24,607 nt of DNA from a virus: positions 1-24,607 of the IMG/VR virus record IMGVR_UViG_3300045131_003011, one strand, 5' to 3'. Below are positions 2,200 to 17,345 of this stretch, piece by piece (the first letter of the stretch is position 1; the number at the start of each line of letters is the position of its first letter). Position numbers and translations under genes: made by a program. The notes under the pieces were generated by a model. That model did no database searches, was not told the DNA's origin, and worked only from the letters and a program-made list of their open reading frames with translations.

Positions 2200-3562
2200 T
2201 TACAAATCAAAACAAATAGATCTACCGCCTCTAGCCTCAGACATGAATCGACTAAACAAAAGACCTTCATATACTGGATCGACATCAGTGATTCCAAGGC
2301 AATAACAAACCAAAGATCCACAAGCACTTCCTCTTCCGGGTCCTACAGCTTGAGTTCCATCACCACCGATATTTTCTCTACACCATTTTCTTGCTTCGTC
2401 AGTCATCATCTTTTGAATAAGAAAATATGTACTAAAACCTTTGCGAGTTATAAGGCTCAACTCTTCAATTATTCTATTTTTATATTCTGTAGTCATTGGC
2501 AAATTACGATGTTTAAATCCTCTCAAGACTTCATCCTTAAGCCTTTGGTCACAATCTGGAAATATAGGTAGTTTCAGACTTCTATCTAATTCGACACCTT
2601 TTGCTTTACGACAAATCTCTACTGTATTCTTTTTAGCTTCGCAAAAAATTTCATAAGGAATAATATCTTTATAATCACTCAGCCACTTTTCATTAAGTTC
2701 TTCCTCAGATTTCATCCATAGATTAGCATCCTGCAATTCGAAGAAATCCTGCATTGAATCTTCTTTCATTGCCCTTTGAATTTCTTTTAATGTTCTGTTG
2801 GTCTGAACCATCAACATAAGTCTTTGCAAGTGACTATCTTCTTTACGGCAATAATGACAATCTTGCGTAAGAATAATCTTCAATCCAAATTTTTGCTTTG
2901 CTTTAACAATAAAAGCGTCATAAGGTTTTTGTTTAACAAAATCTAAAAGCATAATTTCAAGCAGATAATTTTCTTTACCAAACATCTGAATGTATCGTTC
3001 TATCATTTGAAATCCAGCTTCTTCTCCGCCAGCATCAAATGCTCTGCCAACTTCGCTGTTATAGCAACAACTTGTAAAAAATAAGCCTTCTTTATGCTTC
3101 TCAAGTTGTTCGTAATTTACTCTTGGCTTTCTATAAAATCCTTTCGTCCAACCCCAAGATGTCAAACGAACAAGATTTTTATATCCAGTTTCATTATATG
3201 CTATGGCTAATAAGTGTGGACTTGCTCTCAGTTCCAATAATTCACTTGGAGAGAGAGATTCAGAAAATTTTTGCATGTCCGACAAAGAAGAGGATTGTGG
3301 TTGCAATCTATTTACATAAAGTTCCGCAGCGAATATGGGAGAAAGTTTATTTTTCCCATATTTATCACATATCTTTTCGCATGCTTTGATTTGTCTGGGA
3401 ACTGCTCCCAACATGCCATGATCACTAATTGTAAGAAAATTTTGATTTATTTCTGTAGCACGAACCGAATATTCTTCGCATGTTCCAAGCCCATCGAGGA
3501 CGGAAAAGTCGGAGTAACTAATGAAGGTGGAGATGTTCAAAACCAACAATCTCCACCTTCAT
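2200..3562 (-). CDS. dnaE: DNA polymerase III alpha subunit, N-terminal part; frameshifted near start, truncated before active site
   Basis: The main open frame (codons up to TAA at 2200) encodes a PHP domain plus the start of the polymerase palm: SDFSVLDGLG and LTISDHG near the N-terminus and VGPGRGSACGSLV about 45 residues from the end, followed by CLGITDVDP and LLFSRFMSEARGGRS. In bacterial DnaE the next motif carries the catalytic Asp residues (PDxDxDF), but here the protein ends ICFDL. Fingers, beta-binding and the rest of the palm are not in the window. At the 5' end, ATG 3562 with a good AAGGAG site begins MKVEIVGFEHLHLH, matching the PHP metal-binding HxHxH motif, then hits TAG (3518-3520). 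The homology continues one frame over. The only starts in the long frame are weak TTG codons near 3549. It may be a split gene, a decayed copy or an assembly error. Confidence 0.8.
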
Positions 3563-3571
3563 TGTTACTCC
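3511..3571 (-). repeat. Near-perfect inverted repeat over the dnaE ribosome-binding site and start
   Basis: Arms 3511-3534 (24 nt) and 3549-3571 (23 nt) are reverse complements except for one extra base in the left arm; the spacer is 14 nt. On the minus strand one arm holds the GGAG site and ATG of dnaE. The other holds the HLHLH codons and the premature TAG. The hairpin would occlude initiation. Confidence 0.9.
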
Positions 3572-3589
3572 TTTCGTAAATGTCATTGT

Positions 3590-4378
3590 TCAATCTCTTT
3601 GTTTAGTTTGAAGCCAAATTAAAAATTCTTGCTTATCGTACTTTGCATTTTTACGACAATTCTCAGAAGCTGAAATTGGTCGTAAATTCTCCAAACAATT
3701 GATCAAAGACAAATCCCAAATCTTATGATCTGAAAACGCCTTGATTGGGAAAATATGGTCAATATGCCACTTTCCATTTTTTACCTTTTCATAATTCTCA
3801 TGATTGATTATATGATTTTGCAATTCTTTATAATCATAGCCAAGTAAAGCTGAAGTTTTAGACTTTTTTACTCTGCCAGTAACCGCCAAACTCATACTCA
3901 ATAATTTATACGATCTCTGTCGAAATATCAAGTCCATTTTAAATTTCTCTCGATCATCAACCCATTCATAATGATTTTCTCCAGATCGTTTGGCAATTCC
4001 GCAATCCCAACATCTTTTACCTGTTCTGAAATTATTCCAAGAGATCTTTGCTTCTTTGCCACAAGAACAAATATATCGCATATTCTTGGAAGACTTTTCG
4101 TATTGATCCAAAAGCGTACAACCAACGGCTGCGAATTCAGATTTTATTTTTTCATGAGAATAAGAGAATCGTTCGCTTATTTTGCGAGAACCGCAATTTT
4201 TACATCTATTGCCAGATTTGAAACTATAAAAAACAATTTTAGATTCGTTTCCACAAGAACAACGATACCTCATTGGTGTGCGAGCATTGATATAAGTATC
4301 TTCTAATAATTTGCAACCATTTTTTAAGAAGAAACTTTGAACGAATTGATAGGTAAGTCTTTGACTTGAATATTTCAT
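3590..4378 (-). CDS. HNH homing-type endonuclease with two zinc-finger repeats
   Basis: A 262-residue protein. Two N-terminal modules (about residues 15-65 and 82-128) each have a CSCG...CxxCG zinc-binding pattern and a GCxLL...Y lead-in. The C-terminal HNH nuclease follows: WHIDHIFP (His205, Asp207, His208), then CLENLRPISASENCRKNAK with Asn231, Asn240 and Asn244. This architecture is common in free-standing phage homing endonucleases. The ATG at 4378 is chosen because GGAGG lies 4 bases upstream; a GTG at 4411 would add 11 residues with no site. It sits between the coiled-coil gene and the dnaE fragment, so it may have been involved in disrupting or mobilising that locus. Confidence 0.88.
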   Translation of the reverse strand: MKYSSQRLTYQFVQSFFLKNGCKLLEDTYINARTPMRYRCSCGNESKIVFYSFKSGNRCKNCGSRKISERFSYSHEKIKSEFAAVGCTLLDQYEKSSKNMRYICSCGKEAKISWNNFRTGKRCWDCGIAKRSGENHYEWVDDREKFKMDLIFRQRSYKLLSMSLAVTGRVKKSKTSALLGYDYKELQNHIINHENYEKVKNGKWHIDHIFPIKAFSDHKIWDLSLINCLENLRPISASENCRKNAKYDKQEFLIWLQTKQRD

Positions 4379-4382
4379 AAAA

Positions 4383-4405
4383 CCTCCAATATATTTAGTT
4401 GGAGG
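4383..4405 (-). promoter_or_regulatory. RBS-sequestering hairpin of the HNH gene
   Basis: On the minus strand CCTCCAA pairs with TTGGAGG (7 bp, loop of 9), and the GGAGG half is the Shine-Dalgarno site of the HNH gene at 4378. Hairpins that hide the site until a late transcript is made are known for T4 homing-endonuclease genes such as I-TevI. The regulatory effect here is inferred. Confidence 0.65.
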
Positions 4406-4451
4406 CTTCACAATTATTTCAATCTTTTAGACGGTTCTGCAGAATTAAAAG

Positions 4452-4684: not shown

Positions 4685-7600
4685 TTATTTCTTTTCTCGA
4701 ATTCTTACATTAGCAGGATCATTATCGAAACATTCGAATACGACATCAGTACCATCATGACCTTTAGTGGAAAGAAAAACATCATTTCCCCAAATGAATC
4801 TTAGACCAACCAATACATCTCGAACATAAGGCTCATGAAGCGGTCTGCCTTCAAATGTATGCTCAAGCATCAGATAGCCCTTACCACGATAATTAGGCTC
4901 TGTTAAACGAATATCTGGCAGTCCTCCATTTACATGGCGAGCCATCAACAATTTTTTTATCTTATTGTAATCATGACTTTCAAGAATCGTCTCTCCGCTT
5001 GGATAACGCTTATGTTCAAAGTATTCTTGTTCTCGACAGAAATCCTCGGTAAAAAATTCATGTATTAAAGTTAGATCATCGTAATACTTTCTAACTTCAA
5101 ATATTTTTTCCTTACCAAGCATTGCCTTGGTATCCCATTTTTCTTTCTTGCTAGAATTTGTGCAATCATCCCATTCATTGCCGAATTGACCTTTATCCCA
5201 ACGATTGCGAATATCGGACAAAAGATTATATCCTAGCTTATAAGGATTGGTGCTATATTTTCCACCAAGAACACCCATCTTGTGTGCAGCGTATTCAATG
5301 ATTCCAGAATCATGAGTCTTTTGACCCAAGCCGACATAACCCTGTTCTGCCATGATAACATGGTCAGTCATACTATTATGATTCATAAATCCACAAGCCG
5401 AATATCGATGACTTGTTTCTACTGTAATGTCATACACTGTATCTTTTCCAATTTTTTCGATAGAAACAATTTCATCTTCAAGTTTTTGATCAATAAACCA
5501 TTTATGATTGTCAATATACTTCTTTAACTTTTGCTGTTTTCTAGATAATCCAAAACCTATTTGCTCATAATACTTTACCGCTTCCTGTCCGGTTATGCGT
5601 ACATGCCAACAAGAATCTTTTTGTTTGCGTCTTGTTGATAATATGCAAAAATTCAACAAAACATTTTGTATTTGTCTGGAAAGAACTTCGCTTGCGGTGG
5701 AAAGAATGACACCAGCATTCCCCGCATAACCATCACAATCAAAATACGATCTTACAAAAGAAGCGATAACACTCTTGGGCGATTTAAGAATAATTTCTGG
5801 TATTTGCTTAATCCTAGCACAGACTCCAGTTTTCATTCCCAAATAAACAAGTAGTTCTTCAAGTTCTTTTGAAGTTACAGAAATTCTATATCGACCATTT
5901 TTAGATGTGTCATCCCAACTAGATTTACAATCTATACTAAATAATTTCTTTGTAAGACGAATATAATTATCGGCTTGATCTTTATCTCCAGTTGTTAAGC
6001 CAAGAGTTCTCTTGCTTTTAGATATATGACCATCTCCAATCATATATCCAACAAATGAAGCAAATTCTTCATCCATAAAAAAAGGCAAAGATATACATTT
6101 CCTTTTATTTCTCATGCATGTCATAGACTGATCATCATATTGCTTGAGCAATTTGTCTAAATTGTCATTTTTTTCTTCACCTTTATAATGATATTTTCTA
6201 TAAACGACTTGAGACATAGTCACTGATGCTTTTTTACAAATTTGCTTCAATTCTATCCTTTTATTGGGCAATTTATAATCGATTTTTTGATATTTTTTCG
6301 TCCAAATATTTGAAAATGATATTTTAACTTTTTCACCTACATTCATTTTATCAAGACGAACCCAATCATTATTACCCATAATTCTATGATTATTTGAACC
6401 CTCAAAAACATATCCTCTTCTAGTTTCAATCCTATAAACATCACGATTTTCAAAAGTGAACCAATTTGTAACATTTCTAGATTTTTCACCATCATAAACC
6501 ATAACAGGCAACTTTTTATCGACAATTTCACCTAATGTCAAAATGCCCATATTTGTAGATACAAGAGAATCTTTTCGTCCGCAAGCCCATCCTTCGTTTA
6601 ATACTTTGGTTTGTCTCTGTGGGAAAAAATAAATTGATTCTTCATAGATCATAGACATGATATCTTGTTGCCAAGGCTTAAGTGGAGCATTATCACGCAA
6701 AAATCCAAATATATCTTTAACTGGTTCTATAAAAAATCCAAGTTCTTCTGCAAGATCCTTATCTTTTACCTTTTCATTTTCTCTTTCTTTGAACTCTTTT
6801 GTGTTGATGTAATTATCCATATAAAATCGATCACTATCAACTTTAAGTCTTTTTGGAAATCTATAATTTCTTTTATCAATAATATTTCTATCTTTGATAA
6901 CTTTTTGATGCCAAGCCGATGCTCCATCAACCAAAGTATCAATGCGAAGTAAATAATCAAGAAATTCAGTAACCTTTTCCTTGCCCCATCTAGCCATATA
7001 TTTTTTAATACGGCTACTATGATTTGCCATGTTGTTCAACATGTTTGTATCAGTAGCAGAAAAGTGAATATTATTTTTAAAGAAATCATTATGACCAGTG
7101 GCGTGAGCGATAACAGTCAGATGATCCAATAATGTGTTGCTATCTAAGCAATAGATGTAACATGGCGATGTGTTATGAGTAATCAATCCATATGCAATAA
7201 AATCATGAGCATCATGATCCAATGCAATATCAACAGTTTCGATCTCATCTCCATCAACAACATGCTCAACAACAAATAAAGGATTTGAAATAATATCTTT
7301 AATTTCATTTGGAACACTTAATCCTTGATTTTCTGCTCTTTGTACAAATGAAGAAAAAGAATTAATCCCAACTTTTTGTTTCTCGAACATTTTAATTGAA
7401 TAGCCAAGACTATGGTTGTTATATGTTGTAATGTTTAGATTTTTTGCCCACATAATCAATTGTTGTTGAATATATGGCAACTCCATACCTCCATTACGAC
7501 AAAATTTTCTATCAAGTAATTTTTTAAGTAATTCTTGCTTATAGTTAAGCACAAAACCTATTCTATTGTAAAATTTATTTTCAGCCCAAATTCCCTTAAT

Positions 7601-8791
7601 TTTAACAACATTAATATATTTTTGATCACCTTTTTTACCCTTGCCATTTTTTAATGTTTTTAAATTAGAAAGAATTCCCATTTCTGAAAGCATAATCTGA
7701 ACATCATCTGCCAATTTTTTATTGTAGCAACTAAAACCAACATGGTTAACCACATAGCCATCAGTATCGAACAAACCACGAATAAAAGCACATCTATAGG
7801 CAGGAGGAGACTTCCAAATAATATCTGGAATTACTTTTTCTTTAAATGTGTTGCCTTTCTTTAAACCAATCGAATTAACAAAATCAACTGCGTTTTTTGA
7901 GCATAATGTTACATTGAAACAATTTGGCTTTTCGTAAATATCTGCTCCGATTCCAAATACCTTTTCAAACAAAAATACAACATGTTCTGCGTATGACCTA
8001 TGTTTTTTACCAACAGCAACAGTCAACATATTTTCAGCCGACTTTACTCCTACTGATCCATCTCCAACCAAAATTCCAAGAAGTTCTGCCAATTCCATAG
8101 TAATCTGATTTGGCGGATAAATTTCTTTGACACAATGTCTAATGTTTGGTCTTGTTGATTCAATGACTTGTTTTGATGACCAGTCAATACTTGGTGCATC
8201 CCAATTATTTTCATAAGAATCAGTTCCTACAAAAATGTCACCAGAAATAATTTCAGATGTCTTTTTCCAGATCAAACCTTTATCGGAAAGTATACGCCAC
8301 TTGTGATTTGGCGTACAAACTAATGTCTGACCACCTTTAAGAAAAATTTTCTTGGTTTGAGAAGAATTTTGTTTTTTTATGGCGACAACATTCCTAGTTT
8401 CACTACCAACAATAACTTGATCTCCTACCTTCACATCTCCAGCTAGAATTGTACCACGCTTAGTCAAAACCGGAGCGTCAAGTTCACAGCAATTGATAAC
8501 CATCTCATATATTTTGTGCATTTGATTTTCATATCCACGCTGCAATTCTTCATATTGCATGCCAAATGACCAATGTGGATATCGTACTGGAAAGCCACCA
8601 TACGCTGCTACTTCAGAGATTTCATCGTAGGTAAGAAGTTGCACTACGGTTGGATAAAAGTCCAAACCCCAATCTTTACAAACATTTAAAATTATTTGAG
8701 CATATTCTTTTAATTGTTTTGGAAGCTGAACTCCGGGAATTGTGTTGTCGCCAATAAGAAGCGAAGAACCATGCATGAACTTATTAGACAT
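4685..8791 (-). CDS. spoVR: SpoVR family protein interrupted by two inteins
   Basis: A 1368-residue precursor. Removing residues 101-540 and 737-1139 leaves a 525-residue protein, about the usual size for SpoVR/YcgB. Extein motifs are typical: the N-terminal region ends YEMVIN. The middle extein starts TSPCYIYCLDSNTLL and includes AHATGHNDFFKNN (563-574) and FFPQRQTKVLNEGWA (722-736). The last extein starts SMTDHVIMAEQ and contains NGGLPDIRLTEPNY. SpoVR is needed for spore cortex formation in Bacillus and its homologue YcgB occurs in enterobacteria with YeaG/YeaH; the biochemical role is not established. ATG 8791 is preceded by AAGGA. It is 18 bases after the DUF444 gene and shares the unit with prkA. 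The reading frame is intact across both inteins, so splicing is plausible. Confidence 0.93.
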   Translation of the reverse strand: MSNKFMHGSSLLIGDNTIPGVQLPKQLKEYAQIILNVCKDWGLDFYPTVVQLLTYDEISEVAAYGGFPVRYPHWSFGMQYEELQRGYENQMHKIYEMVINCCELDAPVLTKRGTILAGDVKVGDQVIVGSETRNVVAIKKQNSSQTKKIFLKGGQTLVCTPNHKWRILSDKGLIWKKTSEIISGDIFVGTDSYENNWDAPSIDWSSKQVIESTRPNIRHCVKEIYPPNQITMELAELLGILVGDGSVGVKSAENMLTVAVGKKHRSYAEHVVFLFEKVFGIGADIYEKPNCFNVTLCSKNAVDFVNSIGLKKGNTFKEKVIPDIIWKSPPAYRCAFIRGLFDTDGYVVNHVGFSCYNKKLADDVQIMLSEMGILSNLKTLKNGKGKKGDQKYINVVKIKGIWAENKFYNRIGFVLNYKQELLKKLLDRKFCRNGGMELPYIQQQLIMWAKNLNITTYNNHSLGYSIKMFEKQKVGINSFSSFVQRAENQGLSVPNEIKDIISNPLFVVEHVVDGDEIETVDIALDHDAHDFIAYGLITHNTSPCYIYCLDSNTLLDHLTVIAHATGHNDFFKNNIHFSATDTNMLNNMANHSSRIKKYMARWGKEKVTEFLDYLLRIDTLVDGASAWHQKVIKDRNIIDKRNYRFPKRLKVDSDRFYMDNYINTKEFKERENEKVKDKDLAEELGFFIEPVKDIFGFLRDNAPLKPWQQDIMSMIYEESIYFFPQRQTKVLNEGWACGRKDSLVSTNMGILTLGEIVDKKLPVMVYDGEKSRNVTNWFTFENRDVYRIETRRGYVFEGSNNHRIMGNNDWVRLDKMNVGEKVKISFSNIWTKKYQKIDYKLPNKRIELKQICKKASVTMSQVVYRKYHYKGEEKNDNLDKLLKQYDDQSMTCMRNKRKCISLPFFMDEEFASFVGYMIGDGHISKSKRTLGLTTGDKDQADNYIRLTKKLFSIDCKSSWDDTSKNGRYRISVTSKELEELLVYLGMKTGVCARIKQIPEIILKSPKSVIASFVRSYFDCDGYAGNAGVILSTASEVLSRQIQNVLLNFCILSTRRKQKDSCWHVRITGQEAVKYYEQIGFGLSRKQQKLKKYIDNHKWFIDQKLEDEIVSIEKIGKDTVYDITVETSHRYSACGFMNHNSMTDHVIMAEQGYVGLGQKTHDSGIIEYAAHKMGVLGGKYSTNPYKLGYNLLSDIRNRWDKGQFGNEWDDCTNSSKKEKWDTKAMLGKEKIFEVRKYYDDLTLIHEFFTEDFCREQEYFEHKRYPSGETILESHDYNKIKKLLMARHVNGGLPDIRLTEPNYRGKGYLMLEHTFEGRPLHEPYVRDVLVGLRFIWGNDVFLSTKGHDGTDVVFECFDNDPANVRIREKK
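5375..6583 (-). mobile_element. Intein 2 in SpoVR (403 aa, LAGLIDADG endonuclease)
   Basis: Residues 737-1139 of the precursor. Block A is CGRKDSLV, block B GSNNHRIM (His802), and the C-terminal end is SACGFMNHN followed by Ser+1, giving the joined extein NEGWA-S as in other SpoVR proteins. The two LAGLIDADG helices are FVGYMIGDGHIS (913-924) and SFVRSYFDCDGYAG (1010-1023). Between the splicing and endonuclease parts lies a basic ~80-residue insert (about 830-905), possibly a helix-turn-helix DNA-recognition segment. All nucleophiles needed for standard class 1 splicing (Cys1, His, Asn, Ser+1) are present. Confidence 0.92.
7172..8491 (-). mobile_element. Intein 1 in SpoVR (440 aa, LAGLIDADG endonuclease)
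   Basis: Residues 101-540 of the precursor. Block A is CCELDAPV with the first Cys as nucleophile, block B VCTPNHKW (Thr160, His163), and the end is IAYGLITHN followed by Thr+1. Taking the first Cys gives the joined extein VIN-TSPCY, which keeps the family spacing (VINxxPxY). Taking the second Cys would add one residue. LAGLIDADG helices are LLGILVGDGSVG (237-248) and AFIRGLFDTDGYV (335-347). The splicing residues look intact. Confidence 0.92.
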
Positions 8792-8809
8792 CTTATAAAT
8801 CCTTAAATT

Positions 8810-10006
8810 TTACTTTGATTTTTGATTACCCATCAAACTTTTAATTGCATCTAAAATTTGATTATTTCTAATTTCATCATCACGCATATTCGAATCATTA
8901 GGATTTCCATTTCCAAAGTTAATTTCGGTGGTACGAATATTATTTTTATCAAGCTCTCCAGTTTCCAATGCCTTATCGACATGATACTTAACACTATTGG
9001 TATAGTTATAAGGCAAAATTTGTGTGATCCCGACTAAATTAATATCCTTTTCTGGAAATGATTCTTTTAATGTGTTGATAAATACTTGATTATCATCGCC
9101 CCAATTATCTCCATCCGTAAAGTAAAAAACATAAATGTTCCACTTTTGCGGAGGGTATCTATTCTCAAATTGCTTTTGAATAAATTTCAAAGCAGAAGAA
9201 CAAGTTGTTCCTCCGCCATATCGGTAGTTATAAAACTTTTCTTCATCTACTTCCATGGCAAGAGAATCGTGCCACACAAAAAGTCGATCAACTCTTTTAT
9301 AAAATTGTCTAATCCAAACATCAATCCACCAAGCCATATCTGATACGATCTCACATTTAGCTTGATCCATCGATCCAGATCCATCACGGGCATAAATGAT
9401 CAAAGCATTGCTAGAAGGAACTTTAACTTCTTTGTATTGCCTATAACGCTTGTCACGCTTAATTGGCTTGATTGTCTTCATAGGCATGCTAAGACCCGGA
9501 ACTATTTCAAAATTATTAGCAGTTCCATCTGCACATTGCCTTTTTAAAGCTTCGATAAAAGTTCTTCTATTATGACGCAAAGATTCGGGACCAACCAAAG
9601 ATATATTATTATATTTGATTTTTACTTCATCGAATGTATCATTTACTTTTGGCTTTAAATTTGGCAATTCCAGTTCATCTTGCATGAACTTCAATACAGT
9701 TTCCAAATCAAGACTTACGGTGATTCCTTCACCTTCATCCTGAGTTGCCCCATTGCCATTTGCTTTTTTGCCCTTATCAATGACATCGCCATCCTTGCCT
9801 TTACCTCTGCCGATGCCATTGCCGTTGTCACCATAAAGAATTTGAGGAATATCAATTTTTGGAATTGTGATAGAAATTTTACCTCGTTTGCCACGAGATT
9901 TTACTATCTGTCCAGATTTGATAAACTTTTTAAGTGCTTTACGAAGTTTGCCTGAGACAACATCTATAAAGTCTTTATGATCTTCTTCAATTCTGCGTGG
10001 ACACAT
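8810..10006 (-). CDS. YhbH/YeaH family (DUF444) protein with vWA-like domain
   Basis: A 398-residue protein matching the DUF444 family, whose members are encoded next to prkA (yeaGH in E. coli; YhbH in Bacillus). The N-terminus is basic, followed by a Gly/Asp/Lys-rich low-complexity linker (about 59-95). Residues 197-310 form a vWA-like fold with a MIDAS motif: DGSGSM (Asp208, Ser210, Ser212), Thr267/Thr268 in GGGTTCSS, and TDGD at 297-300. The family is known to act in sporulation and stress responses; its molecular role is unclear. ATG at 10006, six bases after the prkA stop, with AGGA within the end of prkA, so the two are coupled. Confidence 0.93.
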   Translation of the reverse strand: MCPRRIEEDHKDFIDVVSGKLRKALKKFIKSGQIVKSRGKRGKISITIPKIDIPQILYGDNGNGIGRGKGKDGDVIDKGKKANGNGATQDEGEGITVSLDLETVLKFMQDELELPNLKPKVNDTFDEVKIKYNNISLVGPESLRHNRRTFIEALKRQCADGTANNFEIVPGLSMPMKTIKPIKRDKRYRQYKEVKVPSSNALIIYARDGSGSMDQAKCEIVSDMAWWIDVWIRQFYKRVDRLFVWHDSLAMEVDEEKFYNYRYGGGTTCSSALKFIQKQFENRYPPQKWNIYVFYFTDGDNWGDDNQVFINTLKESFPEKDINLVGITQILPYNYTNSVKYHVDKALETGELDKNNIRTTEINFGNGNPNDSNMRDDEIRNNQILDAIKSLMGNQKSK

Positions 10007-10012
10007 GTTCTA

Positions 10013-12085
10013 TTATTCCTCGGCTAGATCGCCTCTTGCAAATATAGATCCAACAAAATCTAGAACATCAGTTGCAGATCTTTCGTTATAACCATACTGT
10101 TTGATAAGGCGAGTTTTAATCGCATCTATTTTTTCTTGAATATCCTTATCAACCACAGTTGCTCCGCTAACATTGAGTGCGGACAACTTAATGGTATCTT
10201 TTACATCTTCAAAAAGCTTTGCTTCTAAAGCTTTTCTCAATTTTGGATTAGAATCCCAACTAAATTGCTTGTGCTTGATTGCAAGGTCGCCAATAAAAGC
10301 AGCTATCTGCCTACGGAAATCATCAGCACCCGGTTCTGGTATGTCGATCTTAGATTCAATGGCTCGCATCAATCTTTCATCAGGCTTTCTATCTTGCCCT
10401 GTGATTGGATCTTTAATCTTACTTTTGTTGATATACGCCATGATATTATCAATGTAATTAGCACAAAGGCGAATAATCGCATCTTCATCACCAACAAGAG
10501 CCTTCTGAACTTCGGCTTTTAAAATTTCAGTCAACTTCTTAACTACTAAATCAATACATGTGATGTATCGACCAACATCATCCTTATTGTTCAACAAAGA
10601 ACTTCCTTCTAAACCTTCACGAAGCTCATTTAGAACCATGAACATATTTACATAGTCATGATTATTGGCTAGGCAGTTTGAAAGCTTATCTTGAACATAA
10701 CGAACTGAAACACCACGGGTCATACCCTCATCAGGATACCTATCCTTTAATTCTTTGACTTGCTCTTCTGTCCATCCAGAAAGAAGTTTGCCGTCATAAA
10801 GCTCTGCCTTTTCGACTAAGGAAATTTTACCATCCTTATCATCATGAAGTCTGGTTAAAACTGCCCATAGAGCAGCAACTTCAAGTGTGTGTGGTGCGAT
10901 ATGTTGTTTGACCCTATCTACACCATAATCTTTTTCCAAGATTTTAAGTTCTTCGCCCCATCGAAGAGTATAAGGAACATCGATCTTTACAGTCCTGTCA
11001 CGCAACGCTTCCATATATTGATTGCTTCTAAGCCTTTCGTATTCAGGGCTATTGGTATGACAAAATATTGCCTCATCAATAGAGACTTGTGCAAACTTCT
11101 TCGGCTTAATACTTTGCTCTTGGCTTGCTCCCAAGAGATCATATAAAAATGCTTGATCTAACTTCAAAGCTTCTATAAACTCTATAATTCCCCTGTTTCC
11201 GACACAAAATTCTCCGTCAAAATTAAAACTTCTTGGGTCAGAGTCGGAACCAAAGGTGCTGATACGACTAAAATTAATATCACCTGTAAGTTCTGTAGAG
11301 TCTTGATTTTTTTCATCTTTCGGTTGGAATGTGGCGATACCAACACGATCTGCTTCGCTATATGTTTTTCGAATTACTCGAATATGTTTTTCGAGAACTT
11401 TTTCGAGATCTCCATCATACCTAATCAAAAGTTCTTTCATAAAGAACTTGCATCTTGGATCAAGCTCTCCCTCGCACTTCAATGCATATAGTTCATTTCT
11501 CTCTTCTGCAGATACAGACTCAGAAAGAACTCGATTCAAATCATCCATAATAGGTTTACGAATTTCTGGAGGAAGCAACTTAAGTGGCTGCTCATGCATT
11601 GGGCATTCGTCTTCTTCTTTGACATAAATTCCATCTTGTCCAGTCGGAAGATTTATCCATTTGAAAGTATACCAAGCACCAGCATCGGTTGTGGAATAAT
11701 TTTCCAATTCTCGCTTGAACAATCTACAGATTGTAGATTTAGAGCTACCTACAGGTCCGTGCAAAAGAAGAATTCTTTTTTCAGTACCAAAATATCCAGC
11801 TGCACCTTTGATGAACTTAACCAAAGAATCCTTAGTTGGTGTCAGACCAATGATTGGACATTCCTGATTATCAAAAAAATTATAATGTTTGTATGTCTTT
11901 CTGTATTCTTCAACGGCATGACAACCCTTTTCCATAATCATGTCGTAAATCATTTGCCAAGAATTACGAACAAGTCTTGGTTGCTGATAGCACAGATCAA
12001 TGTATTCGGAAAATGACATTTCTCCGTTAAGAATTTTAAATTTGCTTTGATTGAATCTGCCTATGAATCTTTTAAGTTCGTCCAT
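10013..12085 (-). CDS. prkA: PrkA-type serine protein kinase (AAA+)
   Basis: A 690-residue protein, slightly longer than E. coli YeaG/PrkA. The N-terminal half is the PrkA AAA domain with Walker A GPVGSSKST at 110-118. A conserved SIDEAIFCHTNSPEY segment (around 330) and DRTVKIDVPYTLRW follow, then a C-terminal helical domain with DPITGQDRKPDERLMRAIE, both characteristic of the family. PrkA proteins were first described as serine kinases, and their AAA domain may act as an ATP-dependent machine in stress and sporulation. ATG at 12085 with GGAG 9 bases upstream. First gene of the prkA-DUF444-spoVR unit. Confidence 0.95.
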   Translation of the reverse strand: MDELKRFIGRFNQSKFKILNGEMSFSEYIDLCYQQPRLVRNSWQMIYDMIMEKGCHAVEEYRKTYKHYNFFDNQECPIIGLTPTKDSLVKFIKGAAGYFGTEKRILLLHGPVGSSKSTICRLFKRELENYSTTDAGAWYTFKWINLPTGQDGIYVKEEDECPMHEQPLKLLPPEIRKPIMDDLNRVLSESVSAEERNELYALKCEGELDPRCKFFMKELLIRYDGDLEKVLEKHIRVIRKTYSEADRVGIATFQPKDEKNQDSTELTGDINFSRISTFGSDSDPRSFNFDGEFCVGNRGIIEFIEALKLDQAFLYDLLGASQEQSIKPKKFAQVSIDEAIFCHTNSPEYERLRSNQYMEALRDRTVKIDVPYTLRWGEELKILEKDYGVDRVKQHIAPHTLEVAALWAVLTRLHDDKDGKISLVEKAELYDGKLLSGWTEEQVKELKDRYPDEGMTRGVSVRYVQDKLSNCLANNHDYVNMFMVLNELREGLEGSSLLNNKDDVGRYITCIDLVVKKLTEILKAEVQKALVGDEDAIIRLCANYIDNIMAYINKSKIKDPITGQDRKPDERLMRAIESKIDIPEPGADDFRRQIAAFIGDLAIKHKQFSWDSNPKLRKALEAKLFEDVKDTIKLSALNVSGATVVDKDIQEKIDAIKTRLIKQYGYNERSATDVLDFVGSIFARGDLAEE

Positions 12086-13442: not shown

Positions 13443-13598
13443 TTATTTTTTCTTTTTATTCAAGTGTAAAGGAGAAAAGAGACTAAAAATTGGCTTTGCT
13501 GGCTTTACACTTTTAGACATTAATTGTGTGGGAGAATTTGACCCTCTAGAATTGAAGCCATACATCTTCTCATTTAAAAACTGCTGAAAAGTTTTCAT
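13443..13598 (-). CDS. 51-aa protein with a T4 CTS-like N-terminus
   Basis: A short open frame from ATG 13598 to TAA 13443-13445, starting MKTFQQFLNEK and ending in four lysines. The first ten residues are very close to the T4 internal protein III capsid-targeting sequence as I recall it (MKTYQEFIAE), including a possible prohead-protease site of the form (L/I)-x-E after FLNE. The rest is Ser/Pro/Lys-rich and basic, suitable for a DNA-packed internal protein. It begins three bases after the preceding gene, which has the same type of N-terminus. A GGAG lies about 14 bases upstream, which is long. Confidence 0.6.
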   Translation of the reverse strand: MKTFQQFLNEKMYGFNSRGSNSPTQLMSKSVKPAKPIFSLFSPLHLNKKKK

Positions 13599-13601
13599 TT
13601 A

Positions 13602-13892
13602 TTATTTTAGAACTCCAGCTGTAGCTTTACCCTGATCTTTTTGAGCAGCATCCAATTGAGTCTTAATTGTTTTTTGTAATGCTGCTGGATTAAGTGTTAC
13701 TGGATTTTTAGATTTTAACATTAGATTTTTAACTTCTGTGTCTTTTATGATCTTGTCGGCAATTGCACTTGGATTGTTCCCAATCTTTGGGTCTGCAGAA
13801 AGCATCGCTGATTTTCCTTGGATGGCTCCAGAAAGTTGTGCATCAAAATCGCCCTCTTCTGTAATTTTCAACCAATTTTTGAATGAATTCAT
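13602..13892 (-). CDS. Small protein with a CTS-like N-terminus
   Basis: 96 residues, starting MNSFKNWLKITEE, then a polar Ala/Lys/Asp/Gln-rich body with no cysteine, tryptophan only at position 7, and repeated short motifs such as LSADPKIGNNPSAIADKI. The start has the M-x-S-F-K-x-W-L-K pattern shared with the gene at 16783 and contains ITE, a T4 gp21-protease type site. It may be a scaffold or internal head protein; that is inference. ATG at 13892 with AAGGAG. Confidence 0.7.
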   Translation of the reverse strand: MNSFKNWLKITEEGDFDAQLSGAIQGKSAMLSADPKIGNNPSAIADKIIKDTEVKNLMLKSKNPVTLNPAALQKTIKTQLDAAQKDQGKATAGVLK

Positions 13893-13933
13893 ATTTACTC
13901 CTTATAAACATATATATAGAAGAAAGGAATAAA

Positions 13934-14137
13934 ATGAAAAAATGTTGTTTAACTAGAGTTTTGTTTGGTATGATTTTTGGTTTTTTTCTAAGTATTTTCG
14001 TAATGTATTCACAACTTTCTGGTGTCAAAAATCAAATTAAACATGATCATAAAACATGTGGCATGTGTGTGTGTGAAAAAAAATGCAATTGTCCTCACGA
14101 AAATGACAAATGTAAAAACAAATGTTTGTGTGATTAA
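13934..14137 (+). CDS. Small membrane-anchored Cys-rich protein
   Basis: 67 residues. The N-terminus MKKCCLTR is followed by a hydrophobic segment (about 8-25), so it is probably a single-span membrane protein. The tail carries eight cysteines (42, 45, 47, 51, 53, 60, 64, 66) plus His, a metal-binding or disulfide-rich pattern. ATG 13934 has AAAGGA 6 bases upstream. An in-frame upstream ATG at 13883 would overlap the divergent gene and lacks a site. It is alone on the plus strand and its stop overlaps the stop of the convergent hldE-like gene by four bases. Function unknown. Confidence 0.72.
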   Translation: MKKCCLTRVLFGMIFGFFLSIFVMYSQLSGVKNQIKHDHKTCGMCVCEKKCNCPHENDKCKNKCLCD

Positions 14138-15522
14138 ATTATTTTTCTGACAATTGAATCGATTATATTTGTTGTTGACAATCCATCGACAAATGGAGCA
14201 AAAACAACCTTTCCAGCATAATCTCTGCCAACTACTTCCTTGTCAATATAATCATGACCTTTTACCAAAACCTCTGGATTTAAATGTTTGATAATTTCAA
14301 TTGGTGTGTCTTCTTCAAAACAAGCGACATAATCAACACACTCTAACGCAGCGAGCATTTGCATTCGATGTTGAATTTTATTCACAGGGCGACCCGGCTT
14401 TAACTTCCCAACCGACTCATCACTATTGACAGCAACAAGAAGTTTATCACCTTGCTTTTTAGCAAATTCTAAACTCTCTATATGCCCTGCATGTAAAATA
14501 TCAAAACATCCATTTGTAACGACCAACTTAAAATCTCTTTTTTTAAATCTTTTGTAATCAACAATTTTGGAAGAACTTCCAATAACTGTTTTTTTAATTG
14601 TGTCGATATCTAATGGCTTGTTGTGTTTTTCTGTGACATAAATTAAACCCATAGAAAATGCGAATTCAGCAGCTTCTTCAAGTGGTATGTTGTTGCCCAA
14701 GCATAATCCCAAAAATGCAATAAAACAGTCTCCTGCACCAATAACACTATTGGCTTGTTTGTCTGATTTTGGATTCTTATATTCAAAGTAATTTTCATTA
14801 AATCCAAAAAACCCACTTCCTTCCGAAGTTATAATTACAGACTTACAATTAGTTTGTTTTATTATTGAATCAATTTGCTTAGGCTTTTCTTTTTCATTGG
14901 TAATCGCACAAGCTTCTTGTGTATTTGGTTTTATGAGTGTGCATCCTTTCCACTTTGTAATATCTTTTTTTGGATCAACAATCCTTATGGAGCATGGATG
15001 TTTTTCTGCCAAAGAAGAAACAATTGAATTGGCGAATAATCCTTTGTCGTAATCAGAAAATATCAAAACATCAAAATCTTTTGACATGATTTTTTTGCAA
15101 AGATTTTCAGAAGCCTCCTGCAATTCATCTTTGTTCATGCCATAATTATTTTTCTCGACATCCCAACGATATGTCGGAAAATCCGAACTATAAAATCTTT
15201 TTTTTCTTGGAACCAAATAAGGACTTATACTCACCGATAATGATGTATCAATTTTATTTTTTTGTAAAATTTCATTCGCAGAATCATCTAAGAAAGAACA
15301 TAGAAATGTATTTTTATTTATATTTTTAAGCTGATATGCAACATTAGCGGCTCCGCCCGGAAGAATTGCACTTGGCATGCATTCCTCTGAATGCATTACT
15401 GGAATTGGAAATTCTGGAGATATTTTTCGAACATTTACATTGAAATATTCGTCCAACATAGAATCTCCAACGATTCCAATTTTTAAATTGCTAGAATTAA
15501 TTGATTCTATAATATTCTTCAT
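14134..15522 (-). CDS. hldE: HldE-like bifunctional sugar kinase / nucleotidyltransferase
   Basis: 462 residues, the size of E. coli HldE (477), which makes D-glycero-D-manno-heptose 1-phosphate and then ADP-heptose for lipopolysaccharide. The kinase half (RfaE1, PfkB fold) has GDSMLDEYF at 20-27, PGGAANVA at 55-62 and the catalytic GAGDCF at 262-267. The nucleotidyltransferase half (RfaE2) has NGCFDILHAGH at 337-347 and the ending FVDGLSTTNII. ATG at 15522 is chosen because its 18-residue lead-in to IVGD matches the family; a TTG at 15567 would add 15 residues. It may modify host heptose metabolism or make a phage sugar nucleotide; both are inference. Substrate specificity cannot be read from the sequence. 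Confidence 0.9.
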   Translation of the reverse strand: MKNIIESINSSNLKIGIVGDSMLDEYFNVNVRKISPEFPIPVMHSEECMPSAILPGGAANVAYQLKNINKNTFLCSFLDDSANEILQKNKIDTSLSVSISPYLVPRKKRFYSSDFPTYRWDVEKNNYGMNKDELQEASENLCKKIMSKDFDVLIFSDYDKGLFANSIVSSLAEKHPCSIRIVDPKKDITKWKGCTLIKPNTQEACAITNEKEKPKQIDSIIKQTNCKSVIITSEGSGFFGFNENYFEYKNPKSDKQANSVIGAGDCFIAFLGLCLGNNIPLEEAAEFAFSMGLIYVTEKHNKPLDIDTIKKTVIGSSSKIVDYKRFKKRDFKLVVTNGCFDILHAGHIESLEFAKKQGDKLLVAVNSDESVGKLKPGRPVNKIQHRMQMLAALECVDYVACFEEDTPIEIIKHLNPEVLVKGHDYIDKEVVGRDYAGKVVFAPFVDGLSTTNIIDSIVRKII

Positions 15523-15568
15523 ATGTGCAGCCCAATAATAGATGTTGCTATTATTTGAGTTACACAAT

Positions 15569-16453
15569 TTATTTTTCTATATTTTTAACAGACAAGCCAA
15601 GCATTGCAGCTTTAGTTTTCCACTCTTCCTGTTCCCTTTTATTATCTGTTTTTAAAGAATTCACAGATATTCCTCCCAAGGATGAGACCATTGCATCTAC
15701 TTCCAATTTGGTCAATCTAATCGCTCCACGATGCTCATGATAGTCCTCCCAAGCTTCAACAGCCCAAGGAACAATAGGTTTGATAAGTTCTAGCATAGCA
15801 TTTGCAAACACTCTAATCTCCCATTGGGCATGAGCATCGCAACGCAAGGCTAAAAAATGCAAAAGATTATGCAGATCCACTTTCCAATACCACTCTGTAT
15901 ACAAATTGACTGGTAGGAGCATTCTGGCTTGTTCTCTAGCCACACCATTTTGAATTGCTTTTTCGTATTCCTCATATGATTGATTGCAGATAAAATCTAT
16001 TTTTTCAATGAAGTTAGAAGCATCAACTTCATTTATTGATTCGCCACTTCCTTGTTTATTTACTGATGATTGTTGCCTCACATTTTCAATTTCTGGCTTA
16101 TAAAATTCATCCTTCATCATTGAATATCTTCCACTGTATTCATTAATGTTAGCGGTTCTATGCCTTACCATTTGTCTGGCTATGAATATGGGCATTTTCA
16201 CATTGAATTTTATTTCAATCATTTCGAATGGGGTTGTGTGCTTCTGACGAAGCAGGTAACGAATCAATCCTCTATCTTCATTAATGGTCTTAGTTCCATC
16301 TCCATAAGAAACTCTAGCAGCTTGAACTATTGCATAATCTGCGGTCTTCCTGTCATCTGGAACAAGTCTTGGCATAACATCAAGAATCGTCACATGACCC
16401 TTGTCCAAGCATTTAATTGTTTTTTCTGAAACATTTGTCAAAACATCATGCAT
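15569..16453 (-). CDS. thyX: Flavin-dependent thymidylate synthase ThyX
   Basis: 294 residues. It makes dTMP from dUMP with FAD and methylenetetrahydrofolate. The signature RHR-x7-S motif is at 97-109 (RHRTANINEYSGR). ARVSY (46-50) and HTTPFEMIEIKF (72-83) lie in the conserved N-terminal region, and the REQARMLLPVNLYTEWYW segment precedes the substrate-binding LHNLLHFLALR. An Asn/Ser-rich loop (about 120-145) is inserted. ATG at 16453 with GGAG 8 bases upstream. Phages often carry thyX for nucleotide supply; the dNMP kinase at 18744 belongs to the same pathway. Confidence 0.96.
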   Translation of the reverse strand: MHDVLTNVSEKTIKCLDKGHVTILDVMPRLVPDDRKTADYAIVQAARVSYGDGTKTINEDRGLIRYLLRQKHTTPFEMIEIKFNVKMPIFIARQMVRHRTANINEYSGRYSMMKDEFYKPEIENVRQQSSVNKQGSGESINEVDASNFIEKIDFICNQSYEEYEKAIQNGVAREQARMLLPVNLYTEWYWKVDLHNLLHFLALRCDAHAQWEIRVFANAMLELIKPIVPWAVEAWEDYHEHRGAIRLTKLEVDAMVSSLGGISVNSLKTDNKREQEEWKTKAAMLGLSVKNIEK

Positions 16454-16495
16454 GAGATAACTCCAAAATAGTTAAATCTTATTCTATGAGTTATA

Positions 16496-16524
16496 TTATA
16501 GAAAAAATAAAGGGAAATGAGAAT
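16496..16524 (-). promoter_or_regulatory. Sigma70-like promoter before thyX
   Basis: On the minus strand an exact TATAAT (16496-16501) is preceded by 17 bases and TTCTCA (16519-16524, four of six matching TTGACA). It lies in the 129-base gap (16454-16582) upstream of thyX and gives a leader of about 35 bases. Apart from a doubtful 16-codon frame, nothing else is visible in this gap. Confidence 0.6.
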
Positions 16525-16582
16525 AGCAATTAGAACCAACCTATGTCTCCCATGACAACATCTGGCAGATTAGGAAACATTT

Positions 16583-16783
16583 TTAAAATTTTACTTTTTT
16601 TCTTTTTTTTTTCTCAAGATCATCAACAGTTATCAAACTTGGTGATTTTCTAGTCACTGTTCCAATGCCAATAGGTCTTGCATAAACAGCCACATCACCA
16701 GTCGATGTCATTCCGCCACCCGCAGCTGGTGCTGCTGCTGTTGCGACTTCATTTTGTTTCAACCATTCTTTGAACGATATCAT
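16583..16783 (-). CDS. Small protein with a CTS-like N-terminus
   Basis: 66 residues: MISFKEWLKQNEVATAAAP, then an Ala/Gly-rich linker, a short beta-like part (GDVAVYARPIGIGTVTRK), and a very basic tail KKKRKKVKF. The N-terminus closely matches that of the gene at 13892. ATG 16783 overlaps the upstream stop as ATGA and has GGGAGG upstream, which settles the start against a longer frame from 16852. A basic tail would suit a DNA-associated internal head protein, but this is inferred. Confidence 0.72.
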   Translation of the reverse strand: MISFKEWLKQNEVATAAAPAAGGGMTSTGDVAVYARPIGIGTVTRKSPSLITVDDLEKKKRKKVKF

Positions 16784-17256
16784 GTTATCCCTCCCATACC
16801 TGCATCTGGAGGCATACCACCTGCATCTGCTGGTGGTGGTGCAGGAACCCATGCGGTTGTCAAAAATTTTACAAGTTCGTCACGACTTAAATAATATTTA
16901 TTTTTATCTGGTGTAGCCCTATTAAGGCTTCCATTTTTAAGAAAACTTCTCGTTCTCTTGTCTGGCTTTAAACGAATATATGCTCCATTTTTAGAAATTG
17001 ATTCTGGATCGATTTCCCAAGAAGATGCTTTGTATGACATTTCATAATTTGGCTTGCCCATCATAAAATGAGTTGCAACCCAAGGCTCTGAAGTCAAAAG
17101 TGAAGATAAATCTTTCCATTTAATTCCAAACTCATCTTCGAGTGTATCAATATAATCATTTCCAACTGGCGTAGATTCACTGCCTTCATCTTCTGATTTT
17201 TTCTCAGGAGAAGGGTCCATTTCTTCAATATATTTTTTGAATCCTGCGAAGCTCAT
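16780..17256 (-). CDS. Unknown protein with a CTS-like N-terminus
   Basis: 158 residues. It starts MSFAGFKKYIEEMDPS with an IEE site, followed by an acidic, probably disordered stretch (17-33), a folded centre (YIDTLEDEFGIKWKDLSSLL; YEMSYKASSWEIDPES), and a Pro/Ala/Gly/Met-rich C-terminus. Not recognised as a known family. It is the first gene of the pair with 16783 and has no clear ribosome-binding site. The 89-base divergent gap upstream (17257-17345) contains TTGTTT and TATTAT on this strand at about 19-base spacing, a weak promoter candidate. Confidence 0.68.
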   Translation of the reverse strand: MSFAGFKKYIEEMDPSPEKKSEDEGSESTPVGNDYIDTLEDEFGIKWKDLSSLLTSEPWVATHFMMGKPNYEMSYKASSWEIDPESISKNGAYIRLKPDKRTRSFLKNGSLNRATPDKNKYYLSRDELVKFLTTAWVPAPPPADAGGMPPDAGMGGIT

Positions 17257-17345
17257 ATTTCTATATATAATATTACCCGCTAACTTATGAAAAACAATTA
17301 ATTAAAATAAACTATTGTACTGTTCCATAATAATTTTGTTTTAGG

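Follow-up and report, generated by a model that had tools for sequence, protein, structure and literature searches.

Capsid-targeting-like N-termini on four small proteins of a huge-phage fragment, one of which resembles the N-terminus of the mature capsid protein

The window analysed here, IMG/VR record IMGVR_UViG_3300045131_003011, is by itself a virus record of 24,607 bases. Its minus strand encodes four small proteins of 51, 96, 66 and 158 amino acids (aa), referred to as p51, p96, p66 and p158, whose N-termini resemble the capsid targeting sequence (CTS) of phage T4. An earlier note on this DNA had placed the four open reading frames (ORFs) and their N-termini here, and our ORF calls agree with it. 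The p51 and p96 genes are adjacent, while the p158 and p66 genes overlap by 4 nucleotides (nt; ATGA), an overlap found again in 13 of the 16 loci measured. The features of the four genes are as follows.

13443-13598, minus strand: p51, 51 aa, body with an SRG..SP..L....PAKP-like motif and a KKKK tail.
13569-13598, minus strand: CTS-like tag of p51, MKTFQQFLNE, in the T4 CTS layout of aromatics at 4 and 7, L/I at 8 and E at 10 (PMC9026906).
13602-13892, minus strand: p96, 96 aa, Ala/Lys-rich, no known domain (from ORF calls, family scans and tblastn).
13854-13892, minus strand: CTS-like tag of p96, MNSFKNWLKITEE, which includes ITE.
16583-16783, minus strand: p66, 66 aa, basic tail, resembling the N-terminus of the mature major capsid protein in profile comparisons.
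16748-16783, minus strand: CTS-like tag of p66, MISFKEWLKQNE, whose E12 aligns with the presumed cleavage Glu of the capsid protein.
16631-16708, minus strand: capsid-arm-like segment of p66, TSTGDVAVYARPIGIGTVTRKSPSLI, from the capsid comparisons.
16586-16612, minus strand: Lys/Arg-rich tail of p66, KKKRKKVKF; most aligned family rows have basic tails.
16780-17256, minus strand: p158, 158 aa, looser CTS-like N-terminus and Gly/Pro/Met-rich tail, overlapping p66.
17221-17256, minus strand: CTS-like N-terminus of p158, MSFAGFKKYIEE, from an alignment of 20 family rows.

In T4, the first ten residues of internal protein (IP) III suffice for packaging, with positions 4 and 7 mainly targeting and positions 8 and 10 governing processing, and it is already established that the CTS lets T4-like phages pack varied proteins (PMC9026906). 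T4 Alt is cut after ITE-6 (PMC5694885). In the window, p51, p96 and p66 carry aromatics at positions 4 and 7, and p158 has its pair at 6 and 9. The earlier note had reported three (L/I)-x-E sites and two basic tails, and both were confirmed: [LI]-x-E closes the tag in three of the four proteins (LNE, ITE and IEE), with KQNE instead in p66, and Lys-rich tails are found on two of the four. The same Glu is part of an [LI]-x-E in 11 of 21 aligned p66-family members. Cleavage of p51 is predicted after E10. The T4 peptide that the note had quoted was also correct, as MKTYQEFIAEA opens the T4 genes at 65416-65718 and 65834-66415.

The bodies of the four proteins gave few leads. No credible Pfam or PHROG domain was found in any of them (weak Pfam matches at E 0.1 for two), nor did these scans find homology to the bodies of T4 IPI, IPII or IPIII. 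A tblastn search of annotated phages with p158 returned nothing at E 1, and its AlphaFold model (mean pLDDT 58.7, pTM 0.45) had no PDB match at E <= 0.001.

Conservation of the N-termini was followed by tblastn over 84 viral loci (cut-off E <= 0.05; about 8 of the 84 are near-identical copies), which gave 21 matches for p51, 11 for p96, 36 for p66 and 32 for p158; the weakest p66 match, in L313 (E 0.047), is probably no homologue. The aromatic pair lies near the N-terminus in 19/21 p51, 11/11 p96 and 35/36 p66 matches, and the looser start recurs in 31/32 p158-family matches, while identity within the four families falls as low as 28-36%. Six matches lacking a tag-like start were removed before aligning, so that the invariance of the aromatics in the rows retained is partly by construction. 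In those rows, M1, T3, F4, L8 and P23 are invariant in the p51 family (9 rows), F6 is invariant and F9 at least 90% conserved in the p158 family (20 rows), and F4, W7, E12, T26, A32 and P37 are the common residues of the p66 family (21 rows).

The lineage of the window was recognised through its SpoVR-like gene, which in a protein search led to LR756511, an uncultured huge phage of 595 kb. The window is a fragment of a T4-related huge phage collinear with LR756511, in which 15 of its called proteins have their matches, in the same order, within 338-376 kb. LR756511 has probable counterparts of p158 (364024-364431) and p66 (363842-364027), recognised by the same place, the same overlap and weak similarity; its locus listing contains no such gene for p51 or p96. 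Records G001-G015 are those of the 15 relatives of the window, G009 being a close one.

A strict form of the tag, M-x(1-3)-[FY]-x2-[FWY]-[LIV]-x(0-4)-E, was counted with a simple gene caller of our own (ORFs of at least 40 aa), which misses the p51 gene. It opens 24 of 966 genes in LR756511, against a mean of 1.7 and a maximum of 6 in 300 within-protein shuffles and 6 of 2839 internal methionines. Together with the conservation of the families, this bears out the earlier description of the N-termini as tag-like. In G009 the motif opens 6/153 genes (shuffles mean 0.29, max 3; internal methionines 0/665), and in LR756504 7/854 (shuffles mean 2.4, max 8; internal methionines 2/2669). Counts elsewhere were 3/252 in T4, 3/289 in P-SSM2, 1/480 in RaK2, 2/522 in Atu_ph07 (120-490 kb) and 1/334 in phiKZ. 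In T4, the motif retrieves gp61.1 and both genes that open with the IP peptide, and misses four which we take to be IPI, Alt, gp67 and gp68; the counts are therefore lower bounds. It also has false positives, namely MAFCEYF in LR756511, an internal start at 7834-8367 of L273 and probably a kinase/cytidylyltransferase in L258.

A slightly wider motif was applied to two sets of loci. Around the capsid gene (the best 80 of 370 relatives) it is found on 60 of 612 non-redundant genes, whereas among 3072 internal methionines 8 have it (Fisher p = 2.8e-39). Around PrkA (the best 80 of 135) it is found on 42 of 752 genes, with a raised internal rate of 52/4071, for which the MSFSEYI within PrkA is at least partly responsible; given this rate, the PrkA set was not used as the main statistic. 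One could argue that the four N-termini are chance look-alikes, the loose motif occurring at 0.5-1.4% of internal methionines in the scanned genomes, but conservation in divergent orthologues and genome-wide enrichment already contradict this, and we regard it as scarcely credible.

LR756511 also encodes the head proteins with which such a tag would work. The earlier note had held that its proposal would fall if the genome lacked a T4-type prohead protease. LR756511 has one, a PF03420 match at 526118-526534 (E 6.7e-28), along with a PF07068 (gp23-type) capsid protein at 523572-524777 (E 5e-87). In the controls, PF03420 matched T4, P-SSM2, RaK2 and Atu_ph07, and neither phiKZ nor phage G. Since RaK2 and Atu_ph07 have the protease yet show no enrichment, the expansion of the tag is not general among T4-type phages. 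PF03420 was matched in 9 of 17 large records, seven of the nine having been picked via the capsid gene or being LR756511; of the 10 large records picked via PrkA, it was matched in 2. A second, weaker PF03420 protease-like gene lies away from the head cluster of LR756511 at 242621-242989 (E 3.5e-9), with a NADAR gene (240532-240966) some 2 kb away.

Downstream of its capsid gene, LR756511 has three tagged genes (516905-520135, 520504-521964 and 521964-522461); the closest is about 1 kb away, and two untagged genes separate it from the capsid gene. Short amphipathic helices serve many roles, and the N-terminal helix could instead be a localisation or interaction signal unrelated to the head, for example for a membrane surface, a phage compartment or degradation. 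Many tagged genes do lie far from head genes, and the LR756511 logo peaks for Glu at +2 after the second aromatic, where the T4 cleavage position is +3; the latter also weighs against our own interpretation, and cleavage rules may therefore differ from those of T4. However, the layout is that of the experimentally defined CTS, tagged genes are dense near the capsid gene, and phiKZ, which lacks PF03420, has just one (an unclean control, given the low counts in RaK2 and Atu_ph07 despite their protease). A signal unrelated to the head is therefore improbable, and head targeting of the CTS type has good inferential support.

The body of p66 appears to be a copy of a capsid segment. When the p66 family was compared by hhalign with a profile of 16 capsid proteins of the clade, the two aligned over 31 columns (probability 91.5, E 8.8e-7), with the p66 E12, invariant in 21 rows, paired with the Glu before the presumed mature capsid N-terminus (NE followed by VSTDTGDIAQFKRISIPLVRRIYPQLI). 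Run over 17 whole records, a profile built from the 66-aa proteins only matched the N-terminus of a capsid ORF of 478-497 aa in 9 (E 1.7e-6 to 1.3e-4); its matches to the 66-aa gene are partly by construction, those to the capsid are independent. The nine are the same nine that have PF03420, with the same selection. All 21 p66 members beat shuffled sequences against the capsid (0-2 of 200 shuffles reach the score), and they score 37-60, compared with 30 or less for representatives of 82 other tagged clusters. Judged from these alignments, the p66 body matches the predicted mature capsid N-terminus of its own lineage across the cleavage Glu, a resemblance that points to a structural role. Two other LR756511 genes, at 220448 and 234344, have the highest pairwise scores against the capsid segment.

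A comparable protein exists in T4. gp61.1 (54 aa, beginning MKTFKEFIKEDMVAG; PHROG 1823 / 2086) is annotated as hypothetical, and no function for it was found in the literature covered, where it appears as a gene-table entry. It aligns without gaps to residues 57-93 of gp23, a score reached by none of 2000 shuffles, and ranks first among the 251 T4 genes other than gp23 itself when scored against gp23 61-110 (score 77, next 40). This region includes the N-fist of gp23*, residues 66-91, which is disordered in five portal-facing subunits (PMC7136217). Four subunits are in contact with the N-fist, and when the capsid expands its N-terminal regions shift outward (PMC9958956). By tblastn, gp61.1 matched 1437 of 50,697 phage records, although at least one row among the matches listed (in H97, a capsid-gene record) is gp23 itself. 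Conversely, when six further Straboviridae genomes were searched with a gp23 fragment (residues 21-187), the gp61.1 locus was matched in all six (E 3.3e-7 to 5.2e-4); these genomes had been drawn from the gp61.1 match list and are hence selected. Besides the gp23 and gp61.1 loci, the fragment matched two other places in them. In the public record of Serratia phage 4S the gp61.1 gene (33365-33841; L354) is labelled 'major capsid protein', as in a few other rows, presumably because the N-fist similarity was transferred.

Like gp61.1, p66 combines a CTS-like start, a copy of the capsid N-terminus across the cleavage site and a Lys-rich tail. The two differ in that p66 (window 16583-16783) matched 0 PHROG families, and so falls outside PHROG 1823 / 2086, and in that each resembles the capsid of its own lineage: gp61.1 proteins score higher on the Straboviridae capsid in 7 of 7 cases and p66 members on the huge-phage capsid in 20 of 21. 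Phage-by-phage co-evolution of gp61.1 and gp23 within Straboviridae is not claimed, as a 7 x 7 score matrix had no own-pair preference. The main alternative to a docking role is that the capsid-like segment of p66 and gp61.1 acts as a protease substrate only, a timer or decoy that does not dock on the shell. The similarity does span the cleavage junction in both lineages, as this would require, but it continues for some 25-30 residues past the cut and covers the T4 N-fist (66-91; PMC7136217), far beyond what a protease site needs, and we consider the alternative unlikely.

Beyond the four window proteins, 128 distinct tagged proteins were collected from a redundant set of 3111 called genes, taken from LR756511, four contigs and 160 loci. 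Compared without their first 14 residues, they form 83 body clusters (E 1e-3), a set that includes a few false tags and overcounts families, because diverged p51-family members sit in separate clusters. Of 54 LR756511 proteins fitting the loosest motif, 10 (including SpoVR) were removed by eye and 44 scanned for domains. Pfam matches included PolyA_pol (9.8e-26), NADAR (2.3e-19), HAD_SAK_1 (1.6e-15), Peptidase_C39-like (5e-14), DUF5661 (4.8e-11) and tRNA_lig_CPD (7.6e-9). The tagged bodies are thus diverse, with domains of the tRNA nucleotidyltransferase, RNA-repair HAD, 2H phosphodiesterase and NADAR kinds among those of LR756511. The 43 representatives from other contigs matched 8 Pfam families in total, among them ArdcN (5.3e-5; L306 6870-8228) and FSH1 (7e-7). 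Homologues of the tagged HAD protein in other phages align from residue 16-22 (4/4 other records), and those of the tagged NADAR protein from residue 13-26 in 11 of 14 listed rows; the other three, from Dinoroseobacter phages, align from residue 5. The domains thus begin directly behind the tag, which is consistent with an added tag. The tag is not a general feature of NADAR proteins. Among nine NADAR matches, spread over 5 of the 17 records, one is tagged, namely that about 1 kb beyond the capsid gene of LR756511 on its downstream side, and two clearly lack the tag (LR756511 230689-231084 and one in G017). Beside the tagged NADAR gene, a tagged 486-aa protein (520504-521964) has a C-terminal motif, VLIIDDNVDSGGT, which we take to be phosphoribosyltransferase-like.

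These results divide the proposal of the earlier note, which had seen the four as head-packaged proteins and possible host-takeover or anti-defence effectors. Packaging in the head is supported as the probable role of the CTS-like tags by the protease and gp23-type capsid protein of LR756511. The effector or anti-defence role is not supported for these four, p66 being capsid-like and none having a credible domain; it fits better with other tagged proteins of the clade, such as those with NADAR, RNA-repair and ArdC-N domains.

Upstream of two of the four genes lies a promoter-like word:

17262-17269, minus strand: TATATATA, resembling a late promoter, 5 nt before the start of p158.
13911-13918, minus strand: TATATATA, upstream of p96.

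In LR756511, TATAAATA, which we take to be a T4-late-like promoter, occurs with at most one mismatch and at most 60 nt upstream of 13 of 41 tagged genes and 79 of 925 others (p = 4.4e-5). With intergenic upstream DNA only, the figures are 6/15 and 38/400 (p = 0.0024). TAAATA, a word chosen after inspection of enriched words, is upstream of 14/41 tagged and 55/925 other genes (p = 1.9e-7), and also of the capsid gene. A Shine-Dalgarno sequence was rejected as a mark of tagged genes, many of which score zero. At several tagged LR756511 genes, TAAATA or TATATA ends about 5 nt before the start codon, frequently with no visible Shine-Dalgarno sequence; such spacing suggests leaderless late mRNAs.

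Taken together, we give a probability of roughly 80% to the interpretation that the four are CTS-tagged, protease-processed head proteins of the T4 type, with p66 binding the shell in trans as a counterpart of gp61.1. Each protein would be synthesised late with an amphipathic N-terminal tag of 10-13 residues, which would dock it on the prohead scaffold core as the T4 CTS does; the prohead protease would then cut after the glutamate and the body would stay inside the head. The body of p66, as a copy of the first mature-capsid segment with a Lys-rich tail, would bind at the shell site of the capsid protein's own segment, its basic tail toward the DNA, and gp61.1 would do likewise in T4. Packaging, cleavage, docking and delivery are all steps that we infer from sequence; shell binding appears the most likely role for p66, and for p51 and p96 the simplest reading is an internal-protein role as in the T4 IPs.

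A rival explanation is that the four assist the core or scaffold and are lost by cleavage at maturation, so that they neither persist in the head nor enter the host. The T4 core proteins gp22, gp67 and another are fragmented and mostly removed (PMC9026906), and the p66 body is shell-protein-like. However, the small basic bodies are like those of T4 internal proteins, and other tagged proteins carry enzyme domains. Helpers of this kind seem somewhat unlikely to us.

Several observations count against the head-protein interpretation. Within the families, the tag is only modestly more conserved than the body (0.66 and 0.58 in the p66 family), the p158 N-terminus fits the CTS loosely, and the window p66 has no L/I-x-E. 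Neither the window nor G001-G015 has a PF03420 match, and G001-G015, which were the records searched, have no PF07068 match. By tblastn at E 0.01 the four window proteins have no match in LR756511, whose p66 and p158 counterparts match the G009 proteins only weakly (E 0.024 and 0.068), and the p66 counterpart is outside the top five of 965 genes in pairwise comparison with its own capsid segment. No capsid-copy gene was recognised among the called genes of RaK2, P-SSM2 and Atu_ph07 (120-490 kb), and exact TATAAATA is upstream of 0/41 tagged but 6/925 other LR756511 genes. Furthermore, among seven gp61.1 proteins only those of T4 and Phi1 have a clear CTS start; that of Aes508 (63 aa) lacks a clear one, and in four others, which are 151-158 aa long and have no CTS, another domain comes first and the copy stands near the C-terminus. 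The capsid copy is therefore the common element, and the CTS one of its settings.

A broader scheme, which we offer tentatively, is that the capsid-N-terminal copy of T4-related phages fills vacant N-fist or N-arm sites in trans, its Lys-rich tail tethering DNA, and that the CTS of the huge-phage clade is a general cargo system. In T4 and the huge-phage clade a CTS would deliver the copy, and in several Straboviridae another domain would do so. Candidate vacant sites would be those beside gp24 pentamers, or the portal vertex with its five disordered gp23 N-fists. The cargo of the huge-phage clade might run to dozens of proteins in each head, among them enzymes of RNA repair and ADP-ribose handling whose action would begin as soon as infection starts.

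The set of window genes shared with LR756511 includes a DnaE N-terminus and SpoVR-like, YeaH-like, PrkA-like (68% identity), HldE-like, TnsA-like endonuclease, dNMP (deoxynucleoside monophosphate) kinase and helicase genes. The TnsA-like and dNMP kinase names come from Pfam/PHROG scans of the window; the DnaE, SpoVR, YeaH, PrkA, HldE and helicase labels are our own reading of the sequences. The SpoVR-, YeaH- and PrkA-like genes form one block (4685-12085, minus strand), in the same order in LR756511, and a PrkA relative is encoded by 135 viral stretches. The SpoVR-like gene (4685-8791, minus strand) aligns with LR756511 only over residues 3-100, 475-755 and 1140-1359, and its two unaligned stretches (about 374 and 385 aa) resemble inteins. 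At 2200-4411 (minus strand), an ORF that we read as DnaE-like ends soon past GLLFSRFMSEAR and is adjoined at 3590-4411 by one that we read as an HNH-like endonuclease; the polymerase gene may be split or contain an intron. A 67-aa Cys-rich, small membrane-like protein (13934-14137, plus strand) is encoded between p96 and the HldE-like gene, and LR756511 has a Cys-rich 70-aa counterpart (357840-358052) adjoining its HldE-like gene. Positions 12-1076 are a long repeat-rich stretch with recurring units and open frames on both strands.

Among the known systems close to these proteins are the T4 internal proteins IPI, IPII and IPIII: the window tags share their aromatics three apart, a hydrophobic residue and then Glu, the bodies are small and partly basic, and a T4-type protease is present in the lineage. 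Unlike in the T4 IPs, the second aromatic of the huge-phage tags is often Trp, and there are more tagged genes per genome in LR756511 than in T4. The ejection proteins of phiKZ and SPN3US are similar in being a large head-protein payload cut by the prohead protease; in SPN3US, however, several propeptides exceed 100 residues and only that of gp45 is as short as the T4 CTS, and a shared tag of 10-13 residues is not among the features described (PMC5694885). No report of CTS-type cargo across huge phages, or of the match between gp61.1 and the N-fist, was found in titles and opening abstracts, a coverage that mostly leaves out subscription papers and does not prove absence.

The tag provides a sequence rule with which head cargo could be predicted for huge phages of a large group that is uncultured, while the N-fist match gives T4 gp61.1 a directly testable role. 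Should the tag act in this way, each phage may inject dozens of unrelated proteins along with its genome, ahead of any phage gene expression, and some of these would bring RNA-repair, NADAR or anti-restriction-like domains.

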